DNA from: Embleya hyalina
Lineage (GTDB): Bacteria; Actinomycetota; Actinomycetes; Streptomycetales; Streptomycetaceae
NCBI RefSeq assembly: GCF_003967355.1
Contig: NZ_BIFH01000037.1
Span: 88,277 to 152,276, forward strand
Direction of reading: 5' to 3'
Length of the DNA stretch: 64,000 bases
Of the stretch, positions 11,092 to 49,574 are shown in pieces (positions within the stretch are counted from its first letter, which is position 1; each line of letters opens with the position of its first letter). A program made the position numbers and the translations under genes. A model generated the notes under the pieces. It was not told where the DNA came from and did no database searches. It was given only the letters and a program-made list of their open reading frames with translations.

Positions 11092-11222
11092 GGTTCCGTG
11101 TCCTCCTGGATCGGGCGGTTCGGGTGGTCCGGGTGGTTCGGGCGGGCCGGATGGTGCGGGACGGGCCGGAGCGAGGTGCCGAGTGGATCGCGGCGACGAG
11201 CGGTGCTGCGGTGCTGCGGCGC

Positions 11223-12383: not shown

Positions 12384-13461
12384 GGACGTTCTCCGTTTCC
12401 AGGCCGTTCGCCTCGCATGCCTCGCGGAAGACCCGCAGGCAGCGCTGCCAGGGTTGACCCGGTTCTCCCAGGGTCAGTAGATGGGGCGTCAGTTCGGCGG
12501 AGAAGGCGGTACTGGCCTCGCCGGGAAGCAGCGACGGCAGGTTGTCGATGGCGATCACCCCTAGCGGGTCACCGACATCGGTCAACGCGCGGACCGGTTC
12601 GCGCCAATCGGTGATGTCGTCGTAGACGGGCAACACATTGTTCCGGGACGTGACATCACAGGTGACGTCCACGATCAGGGACAGTCGCCGAGGCCCGGAC
12701 CGGAGCGACGCGAGGGTCACGAACGGCGGGGTCGGCGCGGTCACCAGCACGGCGTTGACGAGGATGTCGTGATCGAGCAGGGCCGCGTGATCCAGCGACC
12801 TGGTCTCGGCCACGTCCCAGCAGGTCGGCTCGATTCCGGCGACCGCCAGCGCGTCGCGCGCGCCGCGCCCGCACCGGCCCAGCGCCCCGATGACCAGCAC
12901 CCTCGGCCGCGCGCCGCTCGACGTCTCGCGCAACACCCGGTCCAGGTCCTCCTTCGGGCGCGGGCGCAGCGGCGGATCGAGCCGGCCCCGATGCCGGAGC
13001 ACCGCGAGCGCGGCGCCCACATATCCGGCCCAGTAGCCGAAAGCGGCCAGCCGCCGACCGTCCGCGTCGGTGAGGTATTCCAGGTCGAGCAGCGCGCCGG
13101 CGCCCGCCGTGAAGCGCCGCAGCAGCGCCCGGGCGTCGCGCTGGCCCTTGTACGCGTGGCCGAAGAACACGTGCCGGTGCCGCAACGCGGGCGGCTCGTC
13201 GGGGAGTTCCTTCAGGCCCACGACGAACTCCGCGGCTGGCGCGGCGCGCCAGCTCCCGGCGTCGGCGGCCACGCAACCGGCGTCGAGGTAGTCCCCGATC
13301 GGGAACACGCGCTGCGGCGAGTGCTCGACGGTGACCGTGATGCCGTGCGCGACGAGCCGCGCGGCGTCGGCCGGCACGATCGGCGCGCGCCGCTCGCTCT
13401 CGCGCGTCTCGTGCCGCATCGTGATCCCGACATCGGTCGTGCGCGGGCGGGGATCGGCCAT
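12376..13461 (-). CDS. Saccharopine dehydrogenase, lysine-forming (LYS1)-like
   Basis: A 361-residue protein of the alanine dehydrogenase/LYS1 family. It shows the N-terminal signature MRHETRESERRAPIVPADAA, the conserved HVFFGHAYKGQ (HAYK with the catalytic His/Lys pair), LLDLEYLTDADGRRLAAFG and the dinucleotide-binding segment VLVIGALGRCGRGARDA. LYS1 interconverts saccharopine with lysine and 2-oxoglutarate using NAD(H). Most bacteria make lysine by the diaminopimelate route and lack this enzyme, so its presence beside a LYS9-like gene in a lysine-consuming operon is telling. Length is close to fungal LYS1 (about 370). Confidence 0.87.
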   Translation of the reverse strand: MADPRPRTTDVGITMRHETRESERRAPIVPADAARLVAHGITVTVEHSPQRVFPIGDYLDAGCVAADAGSWRAAPAAEFVVGLKELPDEPPALRHRHVFFGHAYKGQRDARALLRRFTAGAGALLDLEYLTDADGRRLAAFGYWAGYVGAALAVLRHRGRLDPPLRPRPKEDLDRVLRETSSGARPRVLVIGALGRCGRGARDALAVAGIEPTCWDVAETRSLDHAALLDHDILVNAVLVTAPTPPFVTLASLRSGPRRLSLIVDVTCDVTSRNNVLPVYDDITDWREPVRALTDVGDPLGVIAIDNLPSLLPGEASTAFSAELTPHLLTLGEPGQPWQRCLRVFREACEANGLETENVHV

Positions 13462-15898: not shown

Positions 15899-16816
15899 TC
15901 ATGCGCCGGCTCGGCGCAGCAGCACCCCGATCCGCTGCCCGGGGACGCCGGCGGCCAACAGGTAGTGCCGGCCCGGTTGTACGTGCCCCGCCTCGGCCCG
16001 GTCGACCAGGTTGATCAGCGGGTCGGCGGCGAAGCAGTGGCCCACCCGGGTGATGTTGTCCAGATGGAGCTGGGCCGGGGTGAAGCCGGCCTGTCGTTCC
16101 TTCATCACGATCACGGGTTTGAAGATGTTCGCGTGCATCAGGCCCGCGATGTCGCCCGGCTTCATGCCCAGGGGGGTGAGCAGGCGCTCGTTCACGGTGC
16201 GGGCCAGGTCCGCGCTGATCTCGTTGGAGTGCGCCAGCCTGCTCCGGTCCTCGGCGCTCGCGCAGGCCAGGATCTCGTAGCCGCCCTCGATCTCGCCGTC
16301 GGCCGTCACCAGGCAACTCGCCGCCCCGTCGCTGAACAGCGCGTAGCTCGCCATGCGGTCGTCCTCGTGCGCGGCGCTGTCGGTGGTGACCACCAGCACC
16401 CGCCGGTGGCGGCCGGCGCGGACGAACGCGGTCGCGGTGTCGATCGCGGCCAGCAGGTTGACGCAGCGGTTCATGTTCTGCCCGTAGAAGGGCACGTCGC
16501 CCAGGCCCGCCTCGGCCAGGAACGTCTCCATGAACGCGCCGTGCCCTTCCGAGGGCCCGGGCACGCGGGTGGAGCACAGCACGACGGCGTCGGCGTCGCT
16601 CGCGCCGGCGCGCAGCGTGGCCGCGGCGCTCTCCGCGGCCAGCTCGGCCAGGCCGCGCTCGGTCCGGCGCACGCTGCCCCAGCCCCACAGGTCGGGCGTC
16701 GGTGCCATCCTGAACTCGGCGGCGCGCGCGGGCAGATTGCCGATGCTCGTGTGCGCGACCTCGAACTCGCCCAGGACGTAGCGTGGTGCGTGCAGGTGGG
16801 CGGCCGGTGCGCTCAC
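15899..16816 (-). CDS. KAS III-like acyltransferase with Cys-His-His site
   Basis: A 305-residue thiolase-fold protein of the beta-ketoacyl-ACP synthase III class. Cys118 lies in QNMNRCVNLLAA and His228 in GLMHANIF. The usual active-site Asn (in GNTSAAS) aligns with His260 in RVGHCFAADP. FabH enzymes condense acyl-CoA with malonyl-ACP using Cys-His-Asn. Relatives with altered triads, such as CerJ, instead form esters or amides. The operon has no ketosynthase-extending partner enzymes, so acyl transfer from a carrier to an O or N nucleophile is more likely than chain extension (inference). The GTG start overlaps the stop of the preceding gene by 4 bp. Confidence 0.8.
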   Translation of the reverse strand: MSAPAAHLHAPRYVLGEFEVAHTSIGNLPARAAEFRMAPTPDLWGWGSVRRTERGLAELAAESAAATLRAGASDADAVVLCSTRVPGPSEGHGAFMETFLAEAGLGDVPFYGQNMNRCVNLLAAIDTATAFVRAGRHRRVLVVTTDSAAHEDDRMASYALFSDGAASCLVTADGEIEGGYEILACASAEDRSRLAHSNEISADLARTVNERLLTPLGMKPGDIAGLMHANIFKPVIVMKERQAGFTPAQLHLDNITRVGHCFAADPLINLVDRAEAGHVQPGRHYLLAAGVPGQRIGVLLRRAGA

Positions 16817-17676
16817 GCGTCCTCCTCCGATGCGCCGGCCGGCGCGGACATCAGCGTGTTCGCCTCGGCGTAGGGCACGGCCTCGGCGACGAACGTGAAC
16901 GTCCCGTGCTCGTGCACCTCGCGCGCGGCGCGCAGGAAACCGCCCAGCGCGGCCCGGGCGAACGCCGAGCCCAGGCTGATCCGTCGGGCGCCCAGCTTCT
17001 CCAACTCCGGTACGGACAAAGCCGGTCCGACTCCCGCGAGCACGTTGACGGGCCGGTCGAGCACCGAGCACACGGTGCGGATCGCCTCCACGTCGGGCAG
17101 GCACGGCGCGTACAGCACGTCGGCGCCCGCCTCCTCGTACGCCCGAAGCCGTGCGAGGGTGTCCGCGAAGTCGCGGCGGCCGTGCAGGAAGTTCTCCGCC
17201 CGCGCGGTCAGCGTGAACGGGAACGGCAGCGCCCGGGCCGCCGCCACGGCGGCCGTCACCCGCTCCACGGCCACATCGATCGGCAGGATCGGGTCGGCCG
17301 GATCGCCGGTGGCGTCCTCGATGGAGGCACCGACCAGGCCCGCCTCGGCGGCCAGGCGGATCGTCTCGGCGATCTCCTCGCCCGAGGCGCCGTAGCAACT
17401 CTCCAGGTCGGCGCTGACCGGGTGCGGCGTCGCGGCCACGATCGCGCGCGCGTTGTCCAGCGCCTGACCACGATCCAGCAGGTTCACGCCGTCGGTGTGG
17501 CCCAGCGCGAAGGCCAGTCCCGCGCTCGTGGTCGCCAGCGCGGTGAAGCCGAGCCCCGTCAGCAGGCGGGCGCTGCCCGCGTCCCACGCGTTCGCCACCA
17601 CGAACGCTCCCGGGCTCTCGTGCGCCTCCTTGAAGGCGAGGCCCCTGCGGTACTGGTCAGCCGGGTCGAGCAGCAT
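16813..17676 (-). CDS. PEP mutase/isocitrate lyase-family protein
   Basis: A 287-residue TIM-barrel protein of the ICL/PEPM superfamily. It has FVVANAWDAGSARLL at the first strand, the metal-binding region SADLESCYG (DxDxGYG-like), GASIEDATG, TARAENFL and LGVG-like RISLGSAFARAA near the end. Members include methylisocitrate lyase, PEP mutase and oxaloacetate hydrolase. The ICL signature K-K-C-G-H is not present, so it is not a standard isocitrate lyase. No partner enzymes of phosphonate biosynthesis are nearby. A role in making a small 2-oxo acid or glycine/glyoxylate-type precursor is possible (inference). Confidence 0.75.
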   Translation of the reverse strand: MLLDPADQYRRGLAFKEAHESPGAFVVANAWDAGSARLLTGLGFTALATTSAGLAFALGHTDGVNLLDRGQALDNARAIVAATPHPVSADLESCYGASGEEIAETIRLAAEAGLVGASIEDATGDPADPILPIDVAVERVTAAVAAARALPFPFTLTARAENFLHGRRDFADTLARLRAYEEAGADVLYAPCLPDVEAIRTVCSVLDRPVNVLAGVGPALSVPELEKLGARRISLGSAFARAALGGFLRAAREVHEHGTFTFVAEAVPYAEANTLMSAPAGASEEDA

Positions 17677-17746: not shown

Positions 17747-18541
17747 TCAGATCACTTCGACGTGCTGGTCGGCCCGAACAGCGCTCAGCAGCAGGTCGAT
17801 CACCGCCGAGGGGCCCGTGTCGCGAAAGTGGAAGTGGCCGCCGTCGACCCAGTGGCACTCGGGCGGGCGCACACACTCCCCCTCCCACAACGCGACCTTG
17901 TCGGCGGACAGATAGGGGTCGTCGCGCCCGGCGATCACCGTGACGCCCACCGACAACGGTGCGGCGGCCGTGTACTCGTATCCGGCGGCCATCCGGAAGT
18001 CGGCGATCACGCCGGGCAGCAGCAGGTCCAGGACCTCCTCCTGGGCCAGGACCTCCGGGGGCAGCCCCTCGAAGAACTCCAGTGCCTCGGCGAACGCGCG
18101 GCCCTCCAGGGCGGCGAGCCGACACACCCGCTCCGAGGGCGCGAGCGAGGGGGCCGAGACCCCGGAGACGAACAACCGGCGCAGCGCGGGTACATCGCGC
18201 AACCGCCGCGCGGTCTCGAACGCGACGAGGCTGCCCAGGCTGTGCCCGAACAGGTACACCGGCCGCGTGCCGTCGGCGCCCGCCGCGCCGGCCCGGGCCC
18301 GGATCGCCGAGGCCGCGCCGTCCGCGAACCCCGCCAGCGTCGGTCGGGCCTCCCGGGCCCGGTGCGCGCGGCCGGGTGGGCACACCGCGACCAGTTCGGC
18401 CTCGTCGCCCAATTCCTCCTGCCAGGCCAGGAACGACCGCGAGTCGCCGCCGGCGTGCGCGAAGCAGTAGACGAGCGGGGTGTGCGCGGCGGCGTCGTCG
18501 CGCGAGACGAACCAGCCGTCGCCGGTCACGGACACACTCAC
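17747..18541 (-). CDS. Type II thioesterase (alpha/beta hydrolase)
   Basis: A 264-residue stand-alone thioesterase of the GrsT/RifR type. VYCFAHAGGDSRSF forms the N-terminal region, LFGHSLGSL carries the nucleophile Ser101, and VDGGHFHF the catalytic His. Such enzymes remove wrong or stalled acyl groups from carrier domains. Because the NRPS here ends in a carrier without its own thioesterase, this protein might also release the product (inference). The GTG start overlaps the stop of the C45 gene by 4 bp (GTGA). Confidence 0.88.
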   Translation of the reverse strand: MSVSVTGDGWFVSRDDAAAHTPLVYCFAHAGGDSRSFLAWQEELGDEAELVAVCPPGRAHRAREARPTLAGFADGAASAIRARAGAAGADGTRPVYLFGHSLGSLVAFETARRLRDVPALRRLFVSGVSAPSLAPSERVCRLAALEGRAFAEALEFFEGLPPEVLAQEEVLDLLLPGVIADFRMAAGYEYTAAAPLSVGVTVIAGRDDPYLSADKVALWEGECVRPPECHWVDGGHFHFRDTGPSAVIDLLLSAVRADQHVEVI

Positions 18542-19635
18542 GAGGTCACCTCCGCCGACGCGGACCCGCCGAGCGTCGCGGGCGCGCCCAGTGCGAACGA
18601 GTGGGTGCGGTTCAGCGCCGGATCGCCCGGCCGCACGTGCAGTTCGCCGAGGTCCGGCCGCAACACCGCGGCCGCCACCGTGCGTTCCCGGCGGATGTCG
18701 CCGTTGCCCTCGACCCGGATCGGCGCCCGCGACAGCAGCGCGAAGTGTTCCTCGACGCCGGCGTCGGGCGGCAACTCGCCCACCCGGGCCCGGCAGGCGT
18801 CCAGCCGCTGCCGGGAGAAGTTCCGGGCGAAGACGTTGAGCTCGTCGTGGGCGAGGAAGTCCGGGTGCAGGAAGTGGTTGGTGTGCATGCTCGTCGAGGA
18901 CTCGCTCACCCGCTGCTCGTCGTCCAGGATCTCCACCCACGCCGTCTTGCGGGCGTCGCACAACACCAGGTTGCGCGAACTCGCGAGCCTGAGGGTGCGC
19001 AGGATCCGCACCGCCTCGTCCACGTCGGCGGCGCTGTCCAACAGATGACGGATGGCCAGGTACGGCGGCAGACCCGGCCGCCACCGGCCGCCGAGCACGA
19101 GGTTGAGCCCGACCGCCAGGCCGTCGCTGTTGATCCCGAGATAGCCCAGGAGGCCACCGAAGCCGAGCACCAGGACCCGGCGGGGCGAGCCGGTCCGCGC
19201 GATGTCCAGGACACAGATCTGGTCGTCGAGGTCGCCGTTGAGATCGACCGTCTGCGCCAGCACCGCACCGGCCGCGCCGGCGACGGCGTACGTCGTGCAG
19301 TCGCCCATGGTCGGGATGCGCCGGTACCCCATCACCTCGCGCCGGATCTGCAGCAGCAGCGCCTCGTCGGCATCGAGCCCCGCGCCCTCGGCCAGCCCGC
19401 GCAACTCCTCGGCCAGCAGCGGCGCCTGGGTCTCGATCTCGACCCGGTACGCGTCCAGCGTGGGCCGCAGCGTCGCCCACGACACCGGGGTCGACCCGAC
19501 CCGGTTCAGCCGGGCCAGTCCGTCGTCGAGGAAGGCCCGCAGGCTCTCGGCGCGTTCGACGCCGTGCCGCCGCCCGCACGCGAAGGCGTCGCCCCGGGCC
19601 CGCACCACCGGCACCGCGAGGGTGTCGGGGGTCAT
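18538..19635 (-). CDS. C45-family Ntn-hydrolase (acyl-CoA:6-APA acyltransferase-like)
   Basis: A 365-residue protein of the peptidase C45/IAT family. Gly-Asp before Cys113 in PTMGDCTTYAV marks the expected self-cleavage point that would expose an N-terminal Cys nucleophile. LGINSDGLAVGLNLVL and TSMHTNHFL are typical later motifs. Penicillin isopenicillin-N acyltransferase from this family removes and adds acyl groups on amines. In this operon a plausible job is removal or exchange of a protecting acyl group put on by the GNAT protein next to it (inference). ATGA overlap with the GNAT gene sets the start at 19635. Confidence 0.82.
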   Translation of the reverse strand: MTPDTLAVPVVRARGDAFACGRRHGVERAESLRAFLDDGLARLNRVGSTPVSWATLRPTLDAYRVEIETQAPLLAEELRGLAEGAGLDADEALLLQIRREVMGYRRIPTMGDCTTYAVAGAAGAVLAQTVDLNGDLDDQICVLDIARTGSPRRVLVLGFGGLLGYLGINSDGLAVGLNLVLGGRWRPGLPPYLAIRHLLDSAADVDEAVRILRTLRLASSRNLVLCDARKTAWVEILDDEQRVSESSTSMHTNHFLHPDFLAHDELNVFARNFSRQRLDACRARVGELPPDAGVEEHFALLSRAPIRVEGNGDIRRERTVAAAVLRPDLGELHVRPGDPALNRTHSFALGAPATLGGSASAEVTS

Positions 19636-20246
19636 GCCTGCCCCGTCGGCCGGGTCACCTTGGGCCCGGCGAGCAACTGCTCCCGCACCGACGGCCATTC
19701 GCCGCGCAGCACGCTGTAGTAGATCGCGTCCCGGCGCCGCCCGCCGGGCATCGGATTGAAGCTGCGCAGCACCCCCTCCTCGGTGGCGCCGATGTTGCGC
19801 AGACCCGCCCGCGCCTGGAGGTTGAGCACGTCGGTCTTGAACTCCACCCGCTCGGCACCCAGTTGTTCGAACGCGTGCTCCAGCATGAGGAACTTCGCCC
19901 AGCGGTTGACGCCCCTGCCCCGGAACTCGGCGCCCAGCCACGACCACCCGATCTCCAGCCGCCCGTCCGGCTCGGCGATGCTGCAGAAGCTCATGCTGCC
20001 CGCCGTGCGGTCCACCGACTTGTCGATCACGTTGTAGACGACCCGGCGACCGGCGTCCTGATCGGCCAGCGCCGCGTCGAAGAACGCGTCGAACTCGGCG
20101 TCGGTGGCGATCACCAGCACGAAATAGCGCCAGATCTCGGGGTCCATCGCCTGTTTGCGGATCGCCTCGCGGTCCTCGGGGACGATCGGGCGCAGCAGGA
20201 CGTGCTCGTTCTCCAGTGTCGTCGAAGCGGTCCGCACCCAGGTCAT
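19632..20246 (-). CDS. GNAT-family N-acyltransferase
   Basis: A 204-residue GNAT protein of the RimJ/RimL-like group, with LLRPIVPEDREAI at the start, strand LEIGWSWLGAEFRGRGVNR containing the acyl-CoA pyrophosphate-binding RGRGVN motif, and AGLRNIGATEEGVLR. It sits 1 bp from the ACP gene, and the ligase is beside that. In triacsin biosynthesis a GNAT enzyme succinylates hydrazinoacetate before loading on a carrier, so the same masking step is the leading guess here. Self-protection by acylating the product is the alternative. Confidence 0.82.
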   Translation of the reverse strand: MTWVRTASTTLENEHVLLRPIVPEDREAIRKQAMDPEIWRYFVLVIATDAEFDAFFDAALADQDAGRRVVYNVIDKSVDRTAGSMSFCSIAEPDGRLEIGWSWLGAEFRGRGVNRWAKFLMLEHAFEQLGAERVEFKTDVLNLQARAGLRNIGATEEGVLRSFNPMPGGRRRDAIYYSVLRGEWPSVREQLLAGPKVTRPTGQA

Positions 20247-20247
20247 C

Positions 20248-20511
20248 TCAAGCCGCCTTTCCGGCGTGGCGCGACAGCGCCTCGGTGACGTCGCGCAGCG
20301 TGCTCATGGCCGCGACGTCGGGTTCGGTGAAACAGGCCAGGTCCACCCCGGCATCGTCGCAGGCGGCCATCAGGAACAAGACCTTGTTCAGTGAAGTCAA
20401 TCCGTACGTGCCGACCATGTCCTGGTCCGGGTCGATGTCCTGGGGGGCGACGTCGGACTCCAACACCCGGGCCAGGTTCGTCCTGGCCACGGTCTCAATC
20501 TCGGACTGCAT
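20248..20511 (-). CDS. Free-standing acyl carrier protein
   Basis: An 87-residue acidic helical protein with the phosphopantetheine site Ser40 in YGLTSLNKVLFL (DSL-like, here TSL). I chose the ATG at 20511; it overlaps the ligase gene end by 17 bp, so the pair is translationally coupled. It probably carries the acyl group activated by that ligase as a thioester while other operon enzymes act on it. Confidence 0.85.
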   Translation of the reverse strand: MQSEIETVARTNLARVLESDVAPQDIDPDQDMVGTYGLTSLNKVLFLMAACDDAGVDLACFTEPDVAAMSTLRDVTEALSRHAGKAA

Positions 20512-22045
20512 GGATGCCTCCCTCGGTGTCGTGGATCCGGGATCGGTAGGCGTCGAGAACGCGCCCACGCCTGGGCTTGAGCTGGGAGGTGAGCAGTCCG
20601 TTCCCGACACTGAACCGGGGACTGGCCACCACCACCGCGCGGATCTGCTCGTCGGGGCCGAACGCCGCGTTGGTAAGGGCCAGTTGCTCGGCGACGGCGC
20701 GCTCCAGGTCGGGTCCGCTCGCGTCCTCGGCCGGGGAGACCACGGCGACCAGCCGGGTCTGCGTCGGGCAGAACACCACACATTCCTCGATCGCGGGACT
20801 GGCCTTCATCCGCTCCTCCAGCGGCCGCACGACGACCTTGCGGCCGTTGTCCAGCACGATCACGTCGTCGGCGCGGCCGTGCACGAACAGGAAACCGTCC
20901 TCGTCCAAGTGGCCGATGTCGTTGGTACGCACCGTGCCGTCGGGGGCGAACACCCGCTCGGACACCCCGGGCGGCGCCTGCTCGTAACCCGCGCACACCG
21001 GGTGGTCGGCGTGTACGTGGATCACCCCTTCGGCGTCCAATATCACCCGTTTGCCCGGCAGTACGCGCCCGACGCTGCCCCGCCGATGCGCGCCGGGGTG
21101 GTTCTTGGTGACGATGCACGTCTCGTTGAGGCCGTAGCCCTCGAAGATCGGCAGTCCCGCGTCCTCGAAGAAGGCGAGCGTGCCGGTCGAGGCCGGCGCC
21201 GAACCGGTCCACAGATAGCGGATGCGGTCGCCGAACAACCGCCGCGCGCCGTCGCGGCGCGCCGTCGCCTCGTCCGTGTCGGCACCCGCGCCGCGCATCC
21301 GCGCCTCGATGTGCTTCCTGGCCGTCTCGAAGAACCCCGGCACGCCCATCACCACCGTCGGCCGGATCGCGCGCAGCGCCGGGAACGCGGCCTCGTAGGT
21401 GCAGATCGTGACGTCGTGGCCCCAACGCAGCGCGGAATACGTCCAGTAGCGCTGCTGGAGCACCGACAGCGGCAAAAACACGAGCAGGTTGTCCCCGTCG
21501 CCGTGCGCGAACATCTCCTGGACCGCGCGCAGATCGTCGTCGATGCTGCCGACGGACGCGGTGAGCGTCTTGGGCTCGCCGGTGCTGCCCGAGGTGAGCT
21601 TCAGCGACAACACGTCGTCGGGCGAGTAGACGACCGGCTCCAATACCCGGCCGTCGTCCGACAGGGCCGCCGCGACCTCGATCTCGGCGAGCGCCCTGCT
21701 GCCGGGGGCCCGCGCCGGGCCGTCGGTGAACAGCACACCCAGGCGGTAGCGTTCGCGCAGTCCGGTGTCGGTGTCGAACTTGGCCGGGTCGAAGCCCACC
21801 GTCACCGCGCCCAGGCGGATCGCCGCGAGATCGAGCAGCACCCATTCGAGGCCGTTCGCGGCGATGACACCGATCCGGTCGCCCCGCTCGATGCCCAGGT
21901 CGCGCAACCACAGCGCGAGGCGCCCGGCACGCGTGTGCAGTTCGGTCAGCTCCATCGTCCGGGTCCCGCCGAGCCGGAAGAAGGAGACGCGCCCGCCGGG
22001 GGAGGGGGCCCGGGAGGCGATGTGGTTGATCACCGAGTCGCTCAC
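20495..22045 (-). CDS. AMP-forming acyl-ACP/acyl-CoA ligase
   Basis: A 516-residue ANL-superfamily ligase of the FadD/long-chain type. Motifs are LTSGSTGEPKTLT (P-loop), EGYGLNETCIVTK, TNDIGHLDEDGFLFVHGRADD, and NGLLTSQLKPRRGRV holding the C-terminal catalytic Lys. It forms an acyl-adenylate and transfers it to a thiol, here most likely the ACP encoded next to it. The substrate could be hydrazinoacetate or its N-acyl form, as in triacsin, or a fatty acid. The GTG start overlaps the NRPS stop (GTGA, 4 bp). Confidence 0.85.
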   Translation of the reverse strand: MSDSVINHIASRAPSPGGRVSFFRLGGTRTMELTELHTRAGRLALWLRDLGIERGDRIGVIAANGLEWVLLDLAAIRLGAVTVGFDPAKFDTDTGLRERYRLGVLFTDGPARAPGSRALAEIEVAAALSDDGRVLEPVVYSPDDVLSLKLTSGSTGEPKTLTASVGSIDDDLRAVQEMFAHGDGDNLLVFLPLSVLQQRYWTYSALRWGHDVTICTYEAAFPALRAIRPTVVMGVPGFFETARKHIEARMRGAGADTDEATARRDGARRLFGDRIRYLWTGSAPASTGTLAFFEDAGLPIFEGYGLNETCIVTKNHPGAHRRGSVGRVLPGKRVILDAEGVIHVHADHPVCAGYEQAPPGVSERVFAPDGTVRTNDIGHLDEDGFLFVHGRADDVIVLDNGRKVVVRPLEERMKASPAIEECVVFCPTQTRLVAVVSPAEDASGPDLERAVAEQLALTNAAFGPDEQIRAVVVASPRFSVGNGLLTSQLKPRRGRVLDAYRSRIHDTEGGIHAVRD

Positions 22046-25000
22046 GGCGTGCTCGCCCCCGCCCCGGTGCGCTCGGCCAGGCCGCGTTCGATGTGCGCGG
22101 CCATCGTGCGGATCGTGTCCACCTCCGGCAGGCGGTCCAGCGTGATGGTCAGACCGAACCGTTTGCGCACCCCGGCCAGGATGCGCGCGGCCACCAGCGA
22201 GTCGCCGCCCAGGTCGTACAGCGGGCGCGTGACGTCCAGGTCGACGTCCGCGACGCGCAGCGGTTTGGCCCACAACCCGGCGACCACCAGCTCCAGTTCC
22301 GAATCGGCGGCGGTGGGCGCGGTCGAGGCCGGCCCGGCCGCCTCGGCGGCGGCCGCGAGCCCGGCCCGGTCGACCTTGCCGTTGCGGGTCAACGGCAGCG
22401 CGGCGTGCCAGTACACCGCGGCCGGGATCATGTACTGCGGCAGATGTTCGCGCAGCGCGGCGCGTACCGCCTCCACGTCCGGGCGTTCGTCGCCGGCGGG
22501 GACCAGATGGGCGACCAGCCGATCGCCCCGCGCGCCGGGCTGCCGGGAGACCACCGCGCGTTCCACGGCGGACAGCGCGACCAGTCGGGTCTCCACCTCG
22601 CCGGCCTCGATGCGGTAGCCGTTCACCTTGATCTGGAAGTCACCCCGACCGAGGATGTCGATCTCGCCGTCCGGCAGGTAGCGGCCCAAATCCCCGGTCC
22701 GGTACAGGCGTTCACCGCGTTCCGGATCGAGCACGAAGCGCGCGGCGGTCAACTCCGGGTCGTCCCAGTAGCCCCGGGCCAGACCCACCCCGGCGGCCCA
22801 GATCTCGCCGGTGACCCCGTCGGGCACGTCGCACCCGAACTCGTCGAGCAGGTAGGCCCGGTTGTTCGCGTTGGGCCGGCCGTAGGGGATGCTGCGCGAG
22901 CCGTCCTCGTCCGGGCCGATCGGGTGCGACACGTTCCAGATCGTGGTCTCCGTCGGCCCGCCCAACGAGACGATCCGCGCGTCCGGCACGAGCTTGCGCA
23001 GGTCCTGCGGCAACGTCGGCGGGATACGGTCGCCGCTCATCATCACCAGGCGCAGCGTGTCCAGCGCGTCCGTACCCTCCGCCGCCTGGTCGCGCAGCAG
23101 CGACACGATCGCCGGCACCGAGTTCCACACGCTCACGCGCGCCTCGGCGCACAACGACAACCAGTGCGCGGGATCGGCCGCGCGGTCCGCGTCCGGCAAC
23201 ACCACGGCCGCCCCGGCGCACAGGGCGCCGAAGACGTCGTAGACGGACAGGTCGAAGTTGAAGGCGCTGATGCCGAAGAATCGGTCCGTCGGCCCGATGC
23301 CGAAGCGCGTGTTGCAGTCGGCGACCACGTTGGCCACACTCCCGCGAGCGACCATGACGCCCTTGGGCTCGCCCGTGGTCCCCGACGTGTACAGCACGTA
23401 CGCCAGATGGTCGTCGTTGCTCGCACCGGGCACCGGACGCGGATCGGGCACCGGTCCCGGCGGCAGCGGGCGGCCGACGTCGAGCACGAGGACCTCGCGT
23501 CCCGCCTCGGCGCCCGCCCGCGCGTCGTTGGTCAACACCACCCGCGCCCGGCCGTTGTCCAGCATGTACGCGCGCCGCGCCGGCGGGAGCGCGGCGTCGA
23601 CGGGCAGGTACGCGGCCCCGGCGAGCATCGTCGCGAGGATGCCGACGACCTGCTCGGGCCCACGCCCCATCACCAGCCCGACCAACTCGTCCGGGACCAC
23701 GTCGTGGGCGCGCAACCAGGCGGCGGCGTGTGCCGCGTGCCCGTACACCTGCGCGTAGCTGAGCGAGGCACCCGCGGTCAGCACCGCCGGCGCGTCCGGC
23801 GCACGCTCCACGTGCGCCAGGAACGCGTCGATCAACATGCCCGGCGCGGGCGGCGCCGTCGCCGTCGCGTTGGCCGTCCGGCGGCGTTCGCGCTGCGCCT
23901 CGGGCAGCAGGTCGAACGTCCTCGCCGACCACGACTCCTCGGCGAGCAGCGCCTCCAGCAGGTGCTGGTAGCCCGATACCAGATCCGGTACCAGACCGTC
24001 CGGGAACAGCCCGTCGACACTGTCGAACTGCACCACGACGCCGCCGTGTTGCTCGAACGTGGAGACGTCGAGCCACACCTGCGGGGTCTGACTGGAGGTG
24101 TACACCTCCGGCCCGAACACCTCCAGGGCCGAGCCGTCGACGTCGGCGTGCGCGTAGCCGAGCGCGCTGTTGAACGTGTACGGCATCGGCCCGCGCGCCG
24201 CGCCGTCGCCGCGTCGGGCCGCCTCGCGCAACACCTCGATGCCGGTGAAATGCCGGTTGTCCAACCCCCGGCGCAGCCCGGCCTGCAACGCCCGGGCCCG
24301 CTCGACGAAGGGCAGGCGTCGGTCCACCTCGATCTCGACGAGCATCGTCTCGCAGAAGTTGCCGACGGCCTCGAAGATGCGCGGGTGGATCGGCGGACGG
24401 TTCGCCACCGTGGTGTTGATCGTGAACCGCGAACCGGCGCCCCAGGCCGCGAGGGTGTCCGCGTAGACCGCGAACAGCACCGCGGAGGGGGTGAGTCCGG
24501 CCGCCGCCGCCCGGGCCTTGAGCGCGCTCCACCGCGGCTCGGTCAGCCGGGCGAAGCGCGCCGAGAAGCGTGGTGCCACGATCGAGGAGGGGCTGGTACG
24601 CAGGGGCAGGTCCGGGGCGGGCGCGAGGTCGTCGAGCCGCTCCATCCAATACCCGCGGGCCCGCTTCGCCGGGGCCCGGGTACGCGCGGCCTCGACCGCG
24701 GCCACGTACGCCTCGAAGGACGCCTCCTCCGCCGGGCTTTCGGCGGCGTCCTCGCCCGCGTCGTAGGCCCGGCGCCAGTCGCGGAAGAACAGGAACATGG
24801 CGATCGCGTCCATGACCAGGCCGTCGTGGTCGACGTGCAGCACCATCCGATCGTCCGCCAGCACGGTGACGTCGACCGCCACGAGCGGCGCGCGGTCGGC
24901 GGGCAGCACACGGTGCGAGCGCGACGCGCGTTCGGCGCGCAGGTGTTCGTGCCGCGTCGCCTCGGACGCGTCGCGCAGGTCCATGCGCCCGACGCGCACC

Positions 25001-25383
25001 TCGACCTCGGCCTCCCGCACCTGTCGGCCGTCGGGGGTGAAGCGGGTGCGCAACGCGTCGTGGCGCGCCACCACCGCGCGCAGCGCGGCCTCCAGGCGGT
25101 CGAGGTCCCAGGCACCCTCGATCTCGTGGTAGACGTGACTGGCCACGTTGCCCATCTCGACGTGCTCGCCCCGCCCGACCAGGTAGCTGCGTTGCAGGTC
25201 GGTCATCGCGAAGCCGTCCGGCGGGTCCAGATGGGCGACCAGGGCCGCCTTGTGCTCCTTGATCAGGCGCAGCAGTTCGGGATCCATCCGTTCCCGGGGA
25301 CCCTGCAGGCGCAGATCGGCTCCGGAGGCCGAGATGGTCAGCCCTCTGGCCTCGATCTCGCGGAGAACCCCGAGGTGCTTCAC
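22042..25383 (-). CDS. NRPS module: TubC docking - Cy (cyclization) - A (predicted Cys) - PCP
   Basis: A 1113-residue single module. Residues 1-52 (KHLGVLREIEARG) are a TubC-type N-terminal docking domain. Residues about 58-480 match Cy domains: FAMTDLQRSYLVGR, D187-x4-D192-x2-A195 (the DxxxxDxxS motif with Ser changed to Ala), and SQTPQVWLDVS. The A domain (YTSGTTGEPKGVM, FDLSVYD, GGPTETTIW, NGYRIEAGEVE) gives the ten-residue code D-L-Y-N-M-S-L-I-W-K by alignment to PheA, a known cysteine code. The PCP has LGGDSL near the end. Cy plus Cys normally yields a thiazoline. No oxidase, epimerase or thioesterase domain is present. GTG start at 25383 overlaps the upstream stop (GTGA). Confidence 0.9.
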   Translation of the reverse strand: MKHLGVLREIEARGLTISASGADLRLQGPRERMDPELLRLIKEHKAALVAHLDPPDGFAMTDLQRSYLVGRGEHVEMGNVASHVYHEIEGAWDLDRLEAALRAVVARHDALRTRFTPDGRQVREAEVEVRVGRMDLRDASEATRHEHLRAERASRSHRVLPADRAPLVAVDVTVLADDRMVLHVDHDGLVMDAIAMFLFFRDWRRAYDAGEDAAESPAEEASFEAYVAAVEAARTRAPAKRARGYWMERLDDLAPAPDLPLRTSPSSIVAPRFSARFARLTEPRWSALKARAAAAGLTPSAVLFAVYADTLAAWGAGSRFTINTTVANRPPIHPRIFEAVGNFCETMLVEIEVDRRLPFVERARALQAGLRRGLDNRHFTGIEVLREAARRGDGAARGPMPYTFNSALGYAHADVDGSALEVFGPEVYTSSQTPQVWLDVSTFEQHGGVVVQFDSVDGLFPDGLVPDLVSGYQHLLEALLAEESWSARTFDLLPEAQRERRRTANATATAPPAPGMLIDAFLAHVERAPDAPAVLTAGASLSYAQVYGHAAHAAAWLRAHDVVPDELVGLVMGRGPEQVVGILATMLAGAAYLPVDAALPPARRAYMLDNGRARVVLTNDARAGAEAGREVLVLDVGRPLPPGPVPDPRPVPGASNDDHLAYVLYTSGTTGEPKGVMVARGSVANVVADCNTRFGIGPTDRFFGISAFNFDLSVYDVFGALCAGAAVVLPDADRAADPAHWLSLCAEARVSVWNSVPAIVSLLRDQAAEGTDALDTLRLVMMSGDRIPPTLPQDLRKLVPDARIVSLGGPTETTIWNVSHPIGPDEDGSRSIPYGRPNANNRAYLLDEFGCDVPDGVTGEIWAAGVGLARGYWDDPELTAARFVLDPERGERLYRTGDLGRYLPDGEIDILGRGDFQIKVNGYRIEAGEVETRLVALSAVERAVVSRQPGARGDRLVAHLVPAGDERPDVEAVRAALREHLPQYMIPAAVYWHAALPLTRNGKVDRAGLAAAAEAAGPASTAPTAADSELELVVAGLWAKPLRVADVDLDVTRPLYDLGGDSLVAARILAGVRKRFGLTITLDRLPEVDTIRTMAAHIERGLAERTGAGASTP

Positions 25384-27683
25384 GCCGGCACCCCCGTGCG
25401 TGCGGCGACGTCGTCCGGATCCAGGCCCTCGGCGATCAGCGCGCTCAGTTCGGCGACGGTGCGGGCGCCGAGCAGTTCCTCGATCGGCACGTCGGCGTCC
25501 ACCTGCTCGGTGAGTCGGTACTGCAGGGCGATCGCCTGGAGCGACGCCATGCCCAGCTGGATCAGCGAACGGTCGTGCACGGGCTCGTCGGCGGGCAACC
25601 GCAGGAGATCGCGCACCAGCGCGCTGAACCAGGGGAGCAGCGGCGGCGCCGGTCGGTCGGCGGTCGGGTCCGAGGATCGCGCGTCGGCCGTCCCGGGGAC
25701 GGCGAAGAACTCCCGACCGGCCAGGTCGACGGCGGTCCCGGCGGGCACCAGGTCGACCCGGGCGGGCCAGCGGGTGGGCGCGGGGATGCCGAGCGCGGCC
25801 GAGAGGCGATCCGCGAACCGGGGCATCACCGGGGCGCCGCACGTGGCGAGCAGTCGGGCGGCGGCCAGTTCGAGGGCGATCCCCGTGCGCGCCTCGTCCT
25901 TGAAGTCCGCCACGTCGGCGGCGGGGGCCTGGAGACGGGCGAAGGCGGTGACGTCGGTGACGATGCCGTCCAGCAGTTCGGCCGCGCGGTTGAGCGAGAA
26001 GCCGTCCTGTCCCAGGGCCCCGGTCAGCGCCGACCGGCGCGCCTCCAGGCGGGCCAGGAAGGCCGCGTGCTCGGGCCGCCAGACGCCGGCGTCGGGTGCC
26101 ACGCCGGCGTGCCGCTCGGCGACGCGCTCGCCCAGGTCGTTCAACCACCTCTGCCAGGTGCCGACCAGGGTGTCGCGGACGAAGGTCTCGTAGGTGTCGG
26201 GGGAGAAGCTGGTGCGCCGGCCCTCGGGGCGGGTCAGCGCGAGGTAGAAGCGGATCGAGTCGACCGTGCGGGGGTTCAGCACGTCCTTGCCCCAGATCGC
26301 GTGGCCGCGGCTGGTGGAGAACTTGCTGTCCTCCAGGAGGTAGAACTCGTTGATGTTGTAGTCGATGTCCGGCTGCCAGCGCGGATGCGCGACCCGATAC
26401 AGCGCCGGGATGAACATGGGGTGGAAGAAGCTGCCGTCCGAGCCCAGGAAGTGCACGATCTTCCAGTCGGGCGAGGGGGCGTCCGCGTCCCAGTCGCGGC
26501 CCAGGTCGCGGCCGAGTTCGCCGATGCCGTACAGGATGCTGAAGGCGTAGTCCAGCCAGGACCAGATCACCTGGCCCGGCACATCGGTCTCGGCGGGGGC
26601 GATGCCCCATTCGGCCACGTGCGTGACCGGGATGTGCAACTGCTCGCGGCGGCCCAGGCGTTCGGCCAGTTCCTTGACCGCCGCCGGGACCCGGCCGAGC
26701 CGGTGGTGGTCGGTGACCACCTTCCCGAACTCGTGCAGCGGGAAGGTGTAGCGCACCAGGGCCCGCTCGTGCGGAGGCGCGTCGCACGCCGCCGAGCGCG
26801 GCTCGATCAGGTCGGTGCACACGTTGGGTTCCAGGCACGTCTCGCAGATGTTGCCGCCGCTGTCGCCGTCGCACGTGGGGCAGCGGCCGGAGACCCCCGA
26901 CTCGTACAGGTATTCGCCGGTGTCGGCGGCGAACAGCGCGGCACTCTCGCGCGGCGCCACGGTTCCCGACGCGGTCAGTCGGGAGAAGAACGCCCGCAGC
27001 GCGGCCGGATAGGCGTCGTCGCGACTGGTCGCGGTGTACTGGTGGACGTCGATGTCCATCAGCTTCAGCGTGGCCAGGATCTCGGCGCTGTAGTGCGCGG
27101 CGGTCTGCGCCGGGGTGCGGCCCTCCCGACGGGCGGCGGCCACCACGTAGTTCTGGTAGTCGTCGCTGCCGGTGATGTGCCAGGCGTCGGCGCCGAGCAT
27201 GCGCTGGTGGCGCACGAACACGTCGGCGCCGAAGAACGGCCCCGACAGGTGGCCCAGATGCAGGTCGCCGTTGGGTGTGGGCGCGGAGGAGAAGACGAAC
27301 ACGGGACGGGTGCCGAACCCGCGGTGTCCGGTGTCGTGGGCGGCGTGCGTCGCCCGTTCGCCGTCGCGCCAGTACAGGCTGACGAACAGCAGGTCGGTGT
27401 CTCCCGTGTTCTCCACGGAGTGGGTCTCGAACGGTTCGAACTGGACCACGGTGGAGGCGGACACCGGATGGCGTTCGGCGTCCACGGTCAACTCCCCGGT
27501 GCCGGAGACGAACACCCATGTCTCCGTCTCGTCGTGCTGGTGCGCCTCCGAGCGCGCGCCGGGGGCGACACCGACCCAGGTCGCGCCGACACCCAGCCGC
27601 GTCGCGGAGCCCGCCTCCACGGCGGCCACGGCGACGCCGTCGGCGGCGTGGGGGGCGTCGGGGCGGTAGGTGCTGATCTTCAC
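25380..27683 (-). CDS. Hydrazine synthetase-like cupin/MetRS-like protein with fused C-terminal carrier domain
   Basis: A 767-residue protein. Residues about 1-115 are a cupin with G42-x5-H48-x-H50-x3-E54-x6-G61 and later H88-x3-N92. Residues about 125-640 resemble methionyl-tRNA synthetase: HLGH (142-145), a zinc knuckle C268/C271/C280/C283 and a KMSKS-like KFSTSRG (454-460). Spb40 in s56-p1 biosynthesis has this cupin-MetRS layout and joins N6-hydroxylysine to glycine through an N-N bond using ATP. Unlike the Spb40-type layout as I know it, residues about 675-760 form a carrier domain with Ser714 in LGMASLQAIAL. Its short tail runs to the NRPS start, whose product has a docking domain. Confidence 0.9.
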   Translation of the reverse strand: MKISTYRPDAPHAADGVAVAAVEAGSATRLGVGATWVGVAPGARSEAHQHDETETWVFVSGTGELTVDAERHPVSASTVVQFEPFETHSVENTGDTDLLFVSLYWRDGERATHAAHDTGHRGFGTRPVFVFSSAPTPNGDLHLGHLSGPFFGADVFVRHQRMLGADAWHITGSDDYQNYVVAAARREGRTPAQTAAHYSAEILATLKLMDIDVHQYTATSRDDAYPAALRAFFSRLTASGTVAPRESAALFAADTGEYLYESGVSGRCPTCDGDSGGNICETCLEPNVCTDLIEPRSAACDAPPHERALVRYTFPLHEFGKVVTDHHRLGRVPAAVKELAERLGRREQLHIPVTHVAEWGIAPAETDVPGQVIWSWLDYAFSILYGIGELGRDLGRDWDADAPSPDWKIVHFLGSDGSFFHPMFIPALYRVAHPRWQPDIDYNINEFYLLEDSKFSTSRGHAIWGKDVLNPRTVDSIRFYLALTRPEGRRTSFSPDTYETFVRDTLVGTWQRWLNDLGERVAERHAGVAPDAGVWRPEHAAFLARLEARRSALTGALGQDGFSLNRAAELLDGIVTDVTAFARLQAPAADVADFKDEARTGIALELAAARLLATCGAPVMPRFADRLSAALGIPAPTRWPARVDLVPAGTAVDLAGREFFAVPGTADARSSDPTADRPAPPLLPWFSALVRDLLRLPADEPVHDRSLIQLGMASLQAIALQYRLTEQVDADVPIEELLGARTVAELSALIAEGLDPDDVAARTGVPA

Positions 27684-27702: not shown

Positions 27703-28809
27703 TCACGCGTGCGGAGGAATCGAGGACAGGTCCAGCAGATCCGCGGCCTCCGCCGCGATCGCCGGGGCGAGCCGATATCCGGACCCGTTGGCGGCGCCGG
27801 CGAAGACGACGCGGCCGTCGCCCAGCGCCCGCACCTGCGGTTCGCCGGTGGGGCTGTACGCGTCGCAGAACACCCGTCCCGAGACGCGGTGTTCGGCCAG
27901 CGCGGGGGCGTGGCGGCGCAGGCTCGCGCGCGCCTGGTCGACGTCGTCGGCGGACAGGCCGCCGGCCAGGTCGTCGGGATCGACGTCCCAGGTCGTACAG
28001 GTGTAGCTGAACAGCCAGTGCCCCGAGGCGTGCAGCGGCAGCAGGAAGGCGTCCTCGTCGTGGAAGACGACGGCCCGGTCGGTGCGGGTCGGAACCCGCT
28101 CGACGTGCAGCGCGACGATCTTCTTGACCCGGGCGCCGAGCGGGGCCAGCGACTCGCGCCAGGCGGGTTCGGCGAGCCAGGGTCCCGGGGCCAGCACGAC
28201 CCGATCCGCGGTCACCGTCTCCCCGGTGCCGAGGGCGAGTTCGACACCGCCCACGTCCGGCTCGCGGCCGGGGTCGGTGTGGCCGACGGCGCGCATCGTA
28301 TCCACGTGCACGCCCTCGCGCAGGGTCACCCGTGCCCGCAGTTCGCGGGTGAGGTCGCGCACCAGCGCGTAGACGTCGGCGTACTGGGCGCCCCGACACT
28401 CCCAGATCCGCGCGTGCTCGGGAAGTCGTAGATCGGGCGCGCCGGCTCGGTCCTCGGAAGGGTCGACGGGGGTCAACTCGGCGCTGTCGAGGTAGATCTC
28501 GTGCACGCGCGAGGCGTTCACGGGGGAGGCGACCACCGACATCGGGACCGCGTGAATCGGCAACTCGGGAGCGTTGTGCTTGAGTTCCGCGTAGTAGTCC
28601 TGGCTGTACGCCGTCATGCGCCGCACCCGCTCCGTCGCGCCGCGCGGACAGTGCAGTCCGGCCGACCGGCGGCTCGCGCCGGCACCGACGGTGTCCCGGT
28701 CCAGGAGCAGGACGGACGCCTCCGGCGCGCGGGCGACGATCTCCCGGGCGACCAGGCAGCCGACGATTCCGGCGCCGACGACCGCCACATCGGTGTGTTC
28801 CCGGTTCAC
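27703..28809 (-). CDS. FAD-dependent oxidase (DAO family), hydrazinoacetate-releasing type
   Basis: A 368-residue FAD protein of the D-amino-acid/glycine oxidase family. The dinucleotide site is VAVVGAGIVGCLVA at residues 8-21, followed by DTVGAGASRRSAGLHCPRG, and the C-terminal FAD segment is VVFAGAANGSGYRLAPAIA. In the s56-p1 and triacsin pathways the homologue oxidises the lysine-glycine hydrazine to release hydrazinoacetate and leave 2-aminoadipate 6-semialdehyde. Its place between the lysine hydroxylase and hydrazine synthetase genes supports the same role. GTG start overlaps the hydroxylase stop by 4 bp. Confidence 0.87.
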   Translation of the reverse strand: MNREHTDVAVVGAGIVGCLVAREIVARAPEASVLLLDRDTVGAGASRRSAGLHCPRGATERVRRMTAYSQDYYAELKHNAPELPIHAVPMSVVASPVNASRVHEIYLDSAELTPVDPSEDRAGAPDLRLPEHARIWECRGAQYADVYALVRDLTRELRARVTLREGVHVDTMRAVGHTDPGREPDVGGVELALGTGETVTADRVVLAPGPWLAEPAWRESLAPLGARVKKIVALHVERVPTRTDRAVVFHDEDAFLLPLHASGHWLFSYTCTTWDVDPDDLAGGLSADDVDQARASLRRHAPALAEHRVSGRVFCDAYSPTGEPQVRALGDGRVVFAGAANGSGYRLAPAIAAEAADLLDLSSIPPHA

Positions 28810-30158
28810 AGAGCGTCCAGGTCGTCGACGGGCGGTTTGGCGGACCACTCGACGAACGACGGCAATTGTTCGTCGGAGCCCACCCCCAGAAGCCGGTCGA
28901 GGATGCGCCGGCTGCGCCAGGCGGTCAGGCTCAGATTGGGGTCCGCCAGCCCGCGCTGACCGCGTGCCGCGTTCTGCATGAAGATGAGGCGGTCGCGGGG
29001 GCCGTCCCATTGCACGGCGAAATCCCGGTCGATGCGATACTCGTCGCCCTCGCGTTCCAGACGGCTCTCGATCGGCGCGAGGAATTCGGTCGACGCCGGA
29101 CGGAATCCGGTGGCCCACACGATGGTGTCCACATCCACGTACTCGACCACGTCCGGCCGGTCGTTGTGGCCCATCTCGATGGTCCACCCGCCGGACTCGT
29201 TCCCGCTCACGTCGGTGACCGCACGATTGGGCAGCAGCGCCAGCAGATCCTGCGTGCCCTCGATGAAGCGGTGCTCGTAGCAGCGCTGGTAGATGTCCCG
29301 CAACGTCGACTCGGAGATGCCGTCGCTGCTCAGCACATGACGACTGTTGAGCGACTCGCGAACCGCCCGGTCCACCCCGGCGAAATACTCCGAATAGCTG
29401 GGCGTGTAGTACTCGTTCGTGAACGGCGAGTCGTCGATGGGAAAGTAGTTCCCGCGCCGCGAGATCCAGGTGACACGCCGGGGCAGCTCCTTCGGCGCAC
29501 GGGATATCAGATCCAGAAACGCCTCGGCCCCGGACTGGCCGCCACCGACCACGGCGACCCGCTTTCCGGCAAGTCCGGGCCGTGTTCCGTCGATGAAATC
29601 GCTGACGTGGAACTGCGTGTCGCCGAGTTTGTCCCGGGCATGTGCGGGAACCCATGATCTGGTGCCCACGCCGACGCAGATGTTCTCCGCGGTGACGGTG
29701 CGCCTGCTGGTGTGCACGACGAACGAATCACGTACGTCGTCGAAATCCACGGCGACCACTTTTTCGCCGAAGACGATGTTCTCGTTGCGTCGGCTCGCCC
29801 ACTCCAGATAGTTCCTGAATTCCCGGCGGGGAACCGCGTCGTATTGGGCGTTGATGAAGTGGTAGATCTTGCCCTGCTCGTGCAGATACGAGAGGAAGGA
29901 AAACTCGTTGGTCGGGTCGGAGAGGATGACGAGATCCTTGAGCAACGACACCTGTAGCGACGCGCCGGGTATCTGCTGATTGTCGTGCCAACCGAATCTT
30001 TCCTTCTGGTCGAGAAAGAGGTTCGGTGTCTCCGAGCGCCCGTGCAGCAGTGACGCCAGGCTCAGGTTGGCGGGACCGACTCCGATGCCGACGCAGCGGT
30101 ACTGCGCCGATTGGGGTTCGCTGTTTCCCGAAACACGGTTTTCGACTGGTTTCCCCAC
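28806..30158 (-). CDS. L-lysine N6-hydroxylase (flavin N-monooxygenase)
   Basis: A 450-residue class B N-hydroxylating monooxygenase (IucD/SidA/PvdA type). FAD site GIGVGPANLSLASLL (about 24-38), the substrate-pocket stretch SLLKDLVILSDPTNEFSFLSYL, NADPH site VAVVGGGQSGAEAFLDL, and the C-terminal ATGFRP. It hydroxylates the side-chain amine of lysine using NADPH and O2. No siderophore synthetase is nearby; the hydrazine synthetase gene in the same operon makes lysine the likely substrate for N-N bond formation. It is the first gene of the 16-gene unit; the start is GTG and the Shine-Dalgarno match is weak. Confidence 0.9.
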   Translation of the reverse strand: MGKPVENRVSGNSEPQSAQYRCVGIGVGPANLSLASLLHGRSETPNLFLDQKERFGWHDNQQIPGASLQVSLLKDLVILSDPTNEFSFLSYLHEQGKIYHFINAQYDAVPRREFRNYLEWASRRNENIVFGEKVVAVDFDDVRDSFVVHTSRRTVTAENICVGVGTRSWVPAHARDKLGDTQFHVSDFIDGTRPGLAGKRVAVVGGGQSGAEAFLDLISRAPKELPRRVTWISRRGNYFPIDDSPFTNEYYTPSYSEYFAGVDRAVRESLNSRHVLSSDGISESTLRDIYQRCYEHRFIEGTQDLLALLPNRAVTDVSGNESGGWTIEMGHNDRPDVVEYVDVDTIVWATGFRPASTEFLAPIESRLEREGDEYRIDRDFAVQWDGPRDRLIFMQNAARGQRGLADPNLSLTAWRSRRILDRLLGVGSDEQLPSFVEWSAKPPVDDLDAL

Positions 30159-49414: not shown

Positions 49415-49574
49415 GGATATGGCGAAAACAGGTTCTCGTGCGGATCGTGCGCGCCTCCTTCTTTCGGGAGGCTTCACCGACCCGCCCTCACCCGTACGCA
49501 GATCCGCGAAGTCGTCCCCCGGGTCGCGTCACGCCGGCATGCTGACTGGTGCCGAGGGTGGGGAGCGGGTCCCG

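Follow-up and report, generated by a model that had tools for sequence, protein, structure and literature searches.

What does a hydrazine synthetase use a fused carrier domain for, and what does the gene cluster around such an enzyme make? Both questions are raised by a 64,000-nucleotide stretch of Embleya hyalina DNA (contig NZ_BIFH01000037.1, positions 88,277 to 152,276), here termed the window, in which a minus-strand gene at 25380..27683 encodes an azsN-type hydrazine synthetase with cupin, methionyl-tRNA synthetase-like (MetRS-like), anticodon-like and carrier domains. A preliminary description of this DNA took the fusion to be new. It is not: the same fused carrier was described in 2023 for AzsN (also SFaza12) of the azaserine pathway of Streptomyces fragilis (PMC10445470, PMC11705231), and in 2026 a carrier was described for NngM, the hydrazine synthetase of N-nitroglycine biosynthesis in Streptomyces noursei (PMC13274452). 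The fusion is also common, being present in 14 of the 24 matches with E < 1e-200 among 392 Streptomyces genomes. The unusual part is the surrounding cluster, a natural deletion experiment in which two genes of the azaserine pathway, azsF and azsG, are absent. The moderately favored reading of its gene content is a sister pathway of azaserine, spread over Embleya, Streptomyces and Amycolatopsis, which would have AzsE as its only late oxidase and a retuned nonribosomal peptide synthetase (NRPS), and would lead either to azaserine by a shorter route or to a novel amino acid of the hydrazine, hydrazone or diazo kind.

The synthetase and its carrier domain

The gene begins with GTG and encodes 767 amino acids (aa), in which all four Pfam domains exceed their curated cut-offs. 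The cupin domain (residues 36-103, 27375..27578; Cupin_2, PF07883, 1.6e-13) is followed by the MetRS-like catalytic domain (residues 130-510, 26154..27296; tRNA-synt_1g, PF09334, 2.3e-56) with its HLGH and KFSTS motifs, an anticodon-binding-like domain (residues 530-652, 25728..26096; Anticodon_3, PF19303, 3.3e-6) and the C-terminal carrier domain (residues 686-750, 25434..25628; PP-binding, PF00550, 6.7e-8), all on the minus strand. The carrier that the preliminary description had read after the MetRS-like part is thus borne out by the profile search, whose score of 33.1 bits clears the 20.8-bit cut-off, and a profile match to a solved peptidyl carrier protein (4neo) was obtained at 7.9e-5. 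Sequence alignment likewise upholds the proposed Ser714 in LGMASLQA (25542..25544) as the predicted phosphopantetheine site: the residue is invariant in the six sequences of alignment A1, as are His48, His50 and His88 of the cupin domain, and the column holds Ser, with an SLQ or SIQ motif, in 14 of 14 carrier-bearing orthologues, across which HLGH and KFSTS also align.

The carrier domain evolves under purifying selection. Its ratio of nonsynonymous to synonymous substitution rates (dN/dS, Nei-Gojobori) is 0.05 against the Embleya genome G004, 0.31 against Embleya scabrispora and 0.34 against Streptomyces sporangiiformans; the linker preceding it gives 0.53, 0.43 and 0.46 in the same comparisons. 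Over its whole length the protein is 97% identical to its counterpart in G004 and 84% to that in E. scabrispora, and the gene is 90.5% identical in DNA to that of Embleya sp. NBC_00888.

As first noted, the TGA of the gene overlaps by 4 bp the start of the next one, an azsO-type NRPS gene whose GTG has its first base at 25383. Two other readings of this DNA were discarded: the plus strand across 25380-27683 holds a frame that is open but meaningless, and the minus-strand open reading frame (ORF) at 22042-27519 (1825 aa) represents an extension of the NRPS frame upstream through the azsN-type gene.

Role of the fused carrier

The azaserine pathway offers a worked precedent. There, AzsS succinylates free hydrazinoacetic acid, and AzsP then loads AzsQ, a separate carrier, on which AzsT desuccinylates and AzsF oxidizes the cargo to a hydrazonoacetyl group (PMC10445470). 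In vitro, AzsD transfers this group from AzsQ to the carrier of AzsN, and AzsO couples it from there to serine; release of the product is assigned to AzsB (PMC10445470). Between 30158 and 8429, the minus strand of the window holds 16 genes that are homologues of azsL, M, N, O, P, Q, S, T, B, C, D, E, H, I, J and K by Pfam and tblastn. The partners of the relay, AzsS, AzsP, AzsQ, AzsT and AzsD, are therefore all represented, without AzsF, and homologues of L, M, N, S, T, Q, O, B and E, part of the minimal set for azaserine (PMC10445470), were all found.

The gene at 25380..27683 is very probably the orthologue of azsN, with a carrier that works as in azaserine. Cupin, MetRS-like and C-terminal carrier domains lie in one chain, as in AzsN, and the gene stands directly upstream of an NRPS with Cy, A and carrier domains, the position reported for all carrier-bearing AzsN homologues in PMC10445470. 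By this reading, the cupin and MetRS-like domains, with the L and M homologues, would help to form a nitrogen-nitrogen (N-N) adduct that yields hydrazinoacetic acid; formation of a Lys-Gly N-N adduct by this enzyme is predicted from orthology. The fused carrier would have a second, later job, that of receiving an N-N-containing acetyl group. The ketosynthase-III-like D would move the acetyl group from the free carrier Q to the fused carrier of N, which would offer it to the Cy domain of NRPS O for coupling to an amino acid, and B would release the product after the NRPS step. We infer the same transfers in Embleya hyalina from the azaserine orthologues; the window has the full set of these genes and the carrier with its Ser, all of them conserved.

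The preliminary description had foreseen the outline of this scheme, with a thioester held on the carrier and handed to the next NRPS, and to that extent it agrees with the in vitro work on AzsN (PMC10445470). Its other element, charging by the enzyme's own cupin/MetRS site, did not hold up. That the MetRS-like site charges the fused carrier in cis, with the glycine that enters the N-N bond, draws on the physical fusion of the carrier to a domain of an amino-acid-activating type, and is nevertheless very unlikely: the AzsN carrier is charged by AzsD (PMC10445470), a review has the second amino acid form an ester with the hydroxylamine substrate (PMC11705231), and 22 carrier-less relatives of 657-699 aa exist that share 54-59% identity over the same domains. 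These relatives also agree with the earlier remark that members of the family end after the MetRS-like part. A carrier in decay is harder still to credit. The tree described below implies three or more switches in carrier state, so loss may happen, but the Ser and the SLQ/SIQ motif align in all 14 orthologues and the carrier dN/dS stays at 0.05-0.34.

Three observations weigh against a carrier that acts just as in azaserine. AzsF and AzsG are absent from the cluster and no orthologue of either was found in the genome, so the carried group may be a hydrazine or a hydrazone and need not be the one of azaserine, and the end product may differ as well. The window's NRPS naturally has Asp439, the residue that N447D introduces into AzsO with loss of all ester formation (PMC10445470). 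Finally, the structure models are of low confidence. The full-length model, built with six sequences, has a mean pLDDT (predicted local distance difference test) of 41. The carrier-only model, at pLDDT 61, has helices at 9-19, 29-34, 38-53, 59-63, 68-76 and 81-88, with the Ser one residue into the long helix; Foldseek with this model returned no match at E < 1, the two best being acyl carrier proteins at E 1.1 and 1.3. Because the models are weak and Foldseek gave no significant match, the carrier assignment rests on the hidden Markov model.

Clusters without AzsF and AzsG

Comparison by tblastn of 30 carrier-bearing cluster rows (29 distinct) separated two types. Ten are of the window type: the window itself, four further Embleya clusters (G004, E. 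scabrispora, NBC_00888 and NBC_00896), G871, Amycolatopsis rhizosphaerae, S. sporangiiformans, and Streptomyces sp. cf386 and sp. MMG1121. The other 20, or 19 distinct, since G783 and Streptomyces sp. NBC_01276 are one record, are of the azaserine type. The window's synthetase is 62-97% identical to those of the nine other window-type clusters and 53-59% to those of the azaserine-type rows. Both F and G are present in 20 of 20 azaserine-type rows, and homologues of neither were found by tblastn in any of the 10 window-type clusters, over stretches of 26.8-97 kb. F of the azaserine-type clusters is an acyl-CoA dehydrogenase by Pfam. G scores 26.7 bits in G194, above the P450 family cut-off of 22.8, and 21.6 bits in G118, just below it; the annotation of Streptomyces lavendulae at the two positions reads acyl-CoA dehydrogenase and cytochrome P450.

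No homologue of AzsF or AzsG lies within 97 kb around the window's azsN-type gene. Genome-wide, the best AzsF match in the window's genome reaches 151.5 bits (33% identity) against 542-633 bits for orthologues, and the best AzsG match 61.4 bits (30%) against 452 bits for the G194 orthologue. Across eight window-type genomes, the best F match is at most 255 bits (the orthologue in G194 scores 552) and the best G match 66 bits; an internal F paralogue in the azaserine-type genome G118 scores 249 bits, near the best of the window-type genomes. For Embleya NBC_00888 and NBC_00896 the search for F and G covered a 38 kb stretch.

The rest of the gene set is largely shared. L, M, N, O, P, Q, S, T, B, D, E and J occur in 10 of 10 window-type clusters; H and I are absent in two, C in two and K in one, and in one further cluster azsC is represented by a short 47-bit match. 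In S. sporangiiformans this match lies between B and D (locus L003) and looks like a remnant. Among redox genes, only L, M and E are common to the 10 window-type clusters. Of these, E occurs in each of the 30 rows, whether or not F and G accompany it, and the H, E and D residues of its domain are conserved in both types.

Some azaserine-type clusters (L106, L151 and L152, on S. lavendulae pSA3239 and two Streptomyces plasmids) are carried on linear plasmids. At about 27.8-34 kb they are followed by a conserved serS, an APC permease, a VlmB-like protein, a flavin reductase and a second acyl-CoA dehydrogenase, a block that looks like an azoxy (valanimycin-like) cluster.

Signatures of the NRPS

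The two cluster types also differ in their NRPS. The ten-letter code of the window's A domain is DLYNMSLIWK, read at positions that we take to correspond to the motif positions of GrsA. At position 239 of this code, all 10 window-type clusters have Tyr and all 20 azaserine-type rows Trp. In the Cy domain, the DxxxxD motif is present in 14 of 14 sequences, and the signature change from Thr to Asn is kept in all 30 rows (Asn405 in the window). The second signature residue divides the types, being Asp in all 10 window-type clusters (Asp439 in the window) and Asn in all 20 azaserine-type rows. Because F and G are missing, and because Cy Asp and Tyr239 replace the Asn and Trp of azaserine-type clusters, the window is not to be filed as a plain azaserine cluster.

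Part of this variation has been noticed before. In AzsO of S. fragilis the Cy Asp is changed to Asn, Asp is kept in some homologues, and N447D in AzsO abolished ester formation (PMC10445470), so that the natural Asp439 needs either compensation or another reaction. The authors of that study may have seen window-like clusters. As for the amino acid, DLYNMSLIWK falls among cysteine-type codes, a group that has Tyr or Trp at 239 (PMC12283262). Cysteine as the NRPS substrate is suggested by this, though not decisively: AzsO, too, is predicted for cysteine and works with serine (PMC10445470).

Candidate products

What window-type clusters produce could help to identify the diazo-forming enzyme of azaserine. 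The enzyme that converts the azaserine hydrazone to the diazo compound is still to be identified (PMC13061610); AzsE and AzsG are candidates, and neither was active on HDA-Ser in vitro (PMC10445470). Azaserine from a window-type cluster would mean that G and F can be spared, with E as the likely oxidase; its absence would indicate a new N-N product.

That the cluster makes azaserine itself, with the E homologue alone performing the oxidations of AzsF and perhaps of AzsG, is plausible but falls short of an even chance. It would fit the universal presence of E and the short list of shared redox genes, and multi-step N-oxidations have been described for related haem-oxygenase-like enzymes (PMC13274452). 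An E-type oxidation of hydrazine to hydrazone or diazo is without known precedent, however, the inactivity of AzsE on HDA-Ser counts against it, and changes in the Cy and A signatures would be unneeded for the same product. A different N-N compound, with the acyl group left as a hydrazine or hydrazone, with cysteine in place of serine, or with another bond formed by the Cy domain, is likewise plausible at somewhat less than even odds. This alternative would fit the strict association of Cy Asp and Tyr239 with the absence of F and G, the reverse holding in every azaserine-type row, and is in keeping with the effect of N447D and the cysteine-type code; the latter loses force from the use of serine by a cysteine-predicted AzsO and from the occurrence of both Tyr and Trp at 239 in the cysteine group, and the retention of Asn405, the proposed ester-forming signature, also counts against a different compound. 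The sister pathway proposed above embraces both products.

Comparison with other N-N pathways

Beside azaserine, whose cluster shares the companion genes L, M, O, P, Q, S, T, B, C, D, E, H, I, J and K with the window and differs from it in the acyl-CoA dehydrogenase AzsF, the P450 AzsG and the NRPS residues, the closest described systems include that of N-nitroglycine. NngM is a three-domain hydrazine synthetase with a carrier, made in a phosphopantetheinylating host, and the clusters are homologous (PMC13274452). That pathway requires the P450 NngS and the hydrolase NngA (PMC13274452), whereas Pfam finds no P450 among the 16 cluster genes of the window, and N-nitroglycine is disfavored as the product for this reason. 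Spb40 (s56-p1) and Tri28 (triacsin) are also cupin and MetRS-like hydrazine synthetases, but have no carrier domain and feed other downstream pathways. The Dob pathway of Nocardia ninae has a carrier-bound hydrazonoacetyl intermediate and an equivalent gene set, and differs in an FAD-dependent dehydrogenase step (DobM), a polyketide synthase and a ferritin-like diazo-forming enzyme (PMC13061610). Genome mining in the same work (Nature 2026) took only neighborhoods with PF02770; to judge from its methods, window-like clusters would therefore drop out. In the texts examined on azaserine, N-nitroglycine, A-domain codes, cupin/MetRS hydrazine enzymes and haem-oxygenase-like enzymes with hydrazine, with PMC10445470 represented in part, no description of a cluster without F and G was found, and no paper was found that links azaserine with Embleya.

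History of the fusion

With carrier-bearing matches defined as those covering the azsN-type query to residue 753 or beyond, the fusion occurs in 14 of 392 genomes of Streptomyces, the genus of G118 and S. sporangiiformans; at family level the count is 10 of 394 genomes, and at class level 2 of 394. A single late fusion of the carrier has been hypothesized (PMC10445470). A tree of 51 hydrazine synthetase cores, the window's among them, speaks against it: the carrier-bearing rows do not form one group, and five changes of state are counted, at least three of them forced by well supported branches. The approximately unbiased (AU) test against a single carrier-bearing group gave p 5e-5, a value that is not fully blind, since an earlier 36-row tree already showed one carrier-less row nested among carrier-bearing ones. 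Nine distant rows of that tree (31-38% identity) were dropped before the 51 cores were analyzed. The carrier has probably been lost or gained several times, and an early fusion that was later lost in places, or swapping of the synthetase part, fits better than a single late event. In the 36-row tree, the window-type synthetases form one group of seven rows with support of 100/100.

A locus in genome G391 (L065, L066) has a hydrazine synthetase and an L homologue, with no match to M, Q, S, T or D nearby and a P match that is only 27% identical. It is possibly a different kind of N-N cluster.

The surrounding gene cluster

All genes of the cluster lie on the minus strand, and its limits are set by blastn conservation with E. 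scabrispora, which stops at about 8505 and 30305. The N-O gene pair is placed as in the annotated cluster of S. lavendulae pSA3239, whose gene order agrees with the published azs order (PMC10445470). Upstream of the synthetase lie the homologues of azsL (28806..30158), of the lysine/ornithine N-monooxygenase family (PF13434, 1.7e-93), and of azsM (27703..28809), an FAD oxidoreductase of uncertain start (PF01266, 7.8e-32 on a longer ORF). The azsO homologue (22042..25383) comprises a docking-like region, in which TubC_N matches at 21.9 bits, under its cut-off of 26, and Cy, A and carrier domains. It is followed by the homologues of azsP (20495..22045), an AMP-binding loader (PF00501, 9.9e-41), and azsQ (20248..20511), a free carrier protein of 87 aa, which has a tblastn match in 30 of 30 rows at 53-99% identity to other rows and whose longer ORF has no Pfam match.

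Next come azsS (19632..20246), encoding a GNAT acyltransferase (PF13302, 6.7e-20), azsT (18538..19635), a C45 peptidase (PF03417, 1.2e-18; NF040521, 3.3e-67), and azsB (17747..18541), a thioesterase (PF00975, 1.4e-30 on a longer ORF). The azsC homologue (16813..17676) belongs to the isocitrate lyase/PEP mutase family (PF13714, 2.2e-71), and those of azsD (15899..16816) and azsE (13510..15855) encode a ketoacyl-ACP synthase III (PF08545, 8.9e-9 on a longer ORF) and a haem-oxygenase-like iron redox enzyme (PF14518, 2.4e-15). The series ends with azsH (12376..13461; saccharopine/alanine dehydrogenase-like, PF05222, 3.2e-21), azsI (11223..12383; saccharopine dehydrogenase, PF16653, 8.9e-35), azsJ (9757..11223; ATP-grasp, PF13535, 2.6e-15) and azsK (8429..9751; a major facilitator superfamily transporter, PF07690, 5e-34 on a longer ORF). 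Outside the cluster, on the plus strand at 49419-52907, an ORF of 1162 aa contains numerous WD40 repeats and matches an AAA-type family weakly.

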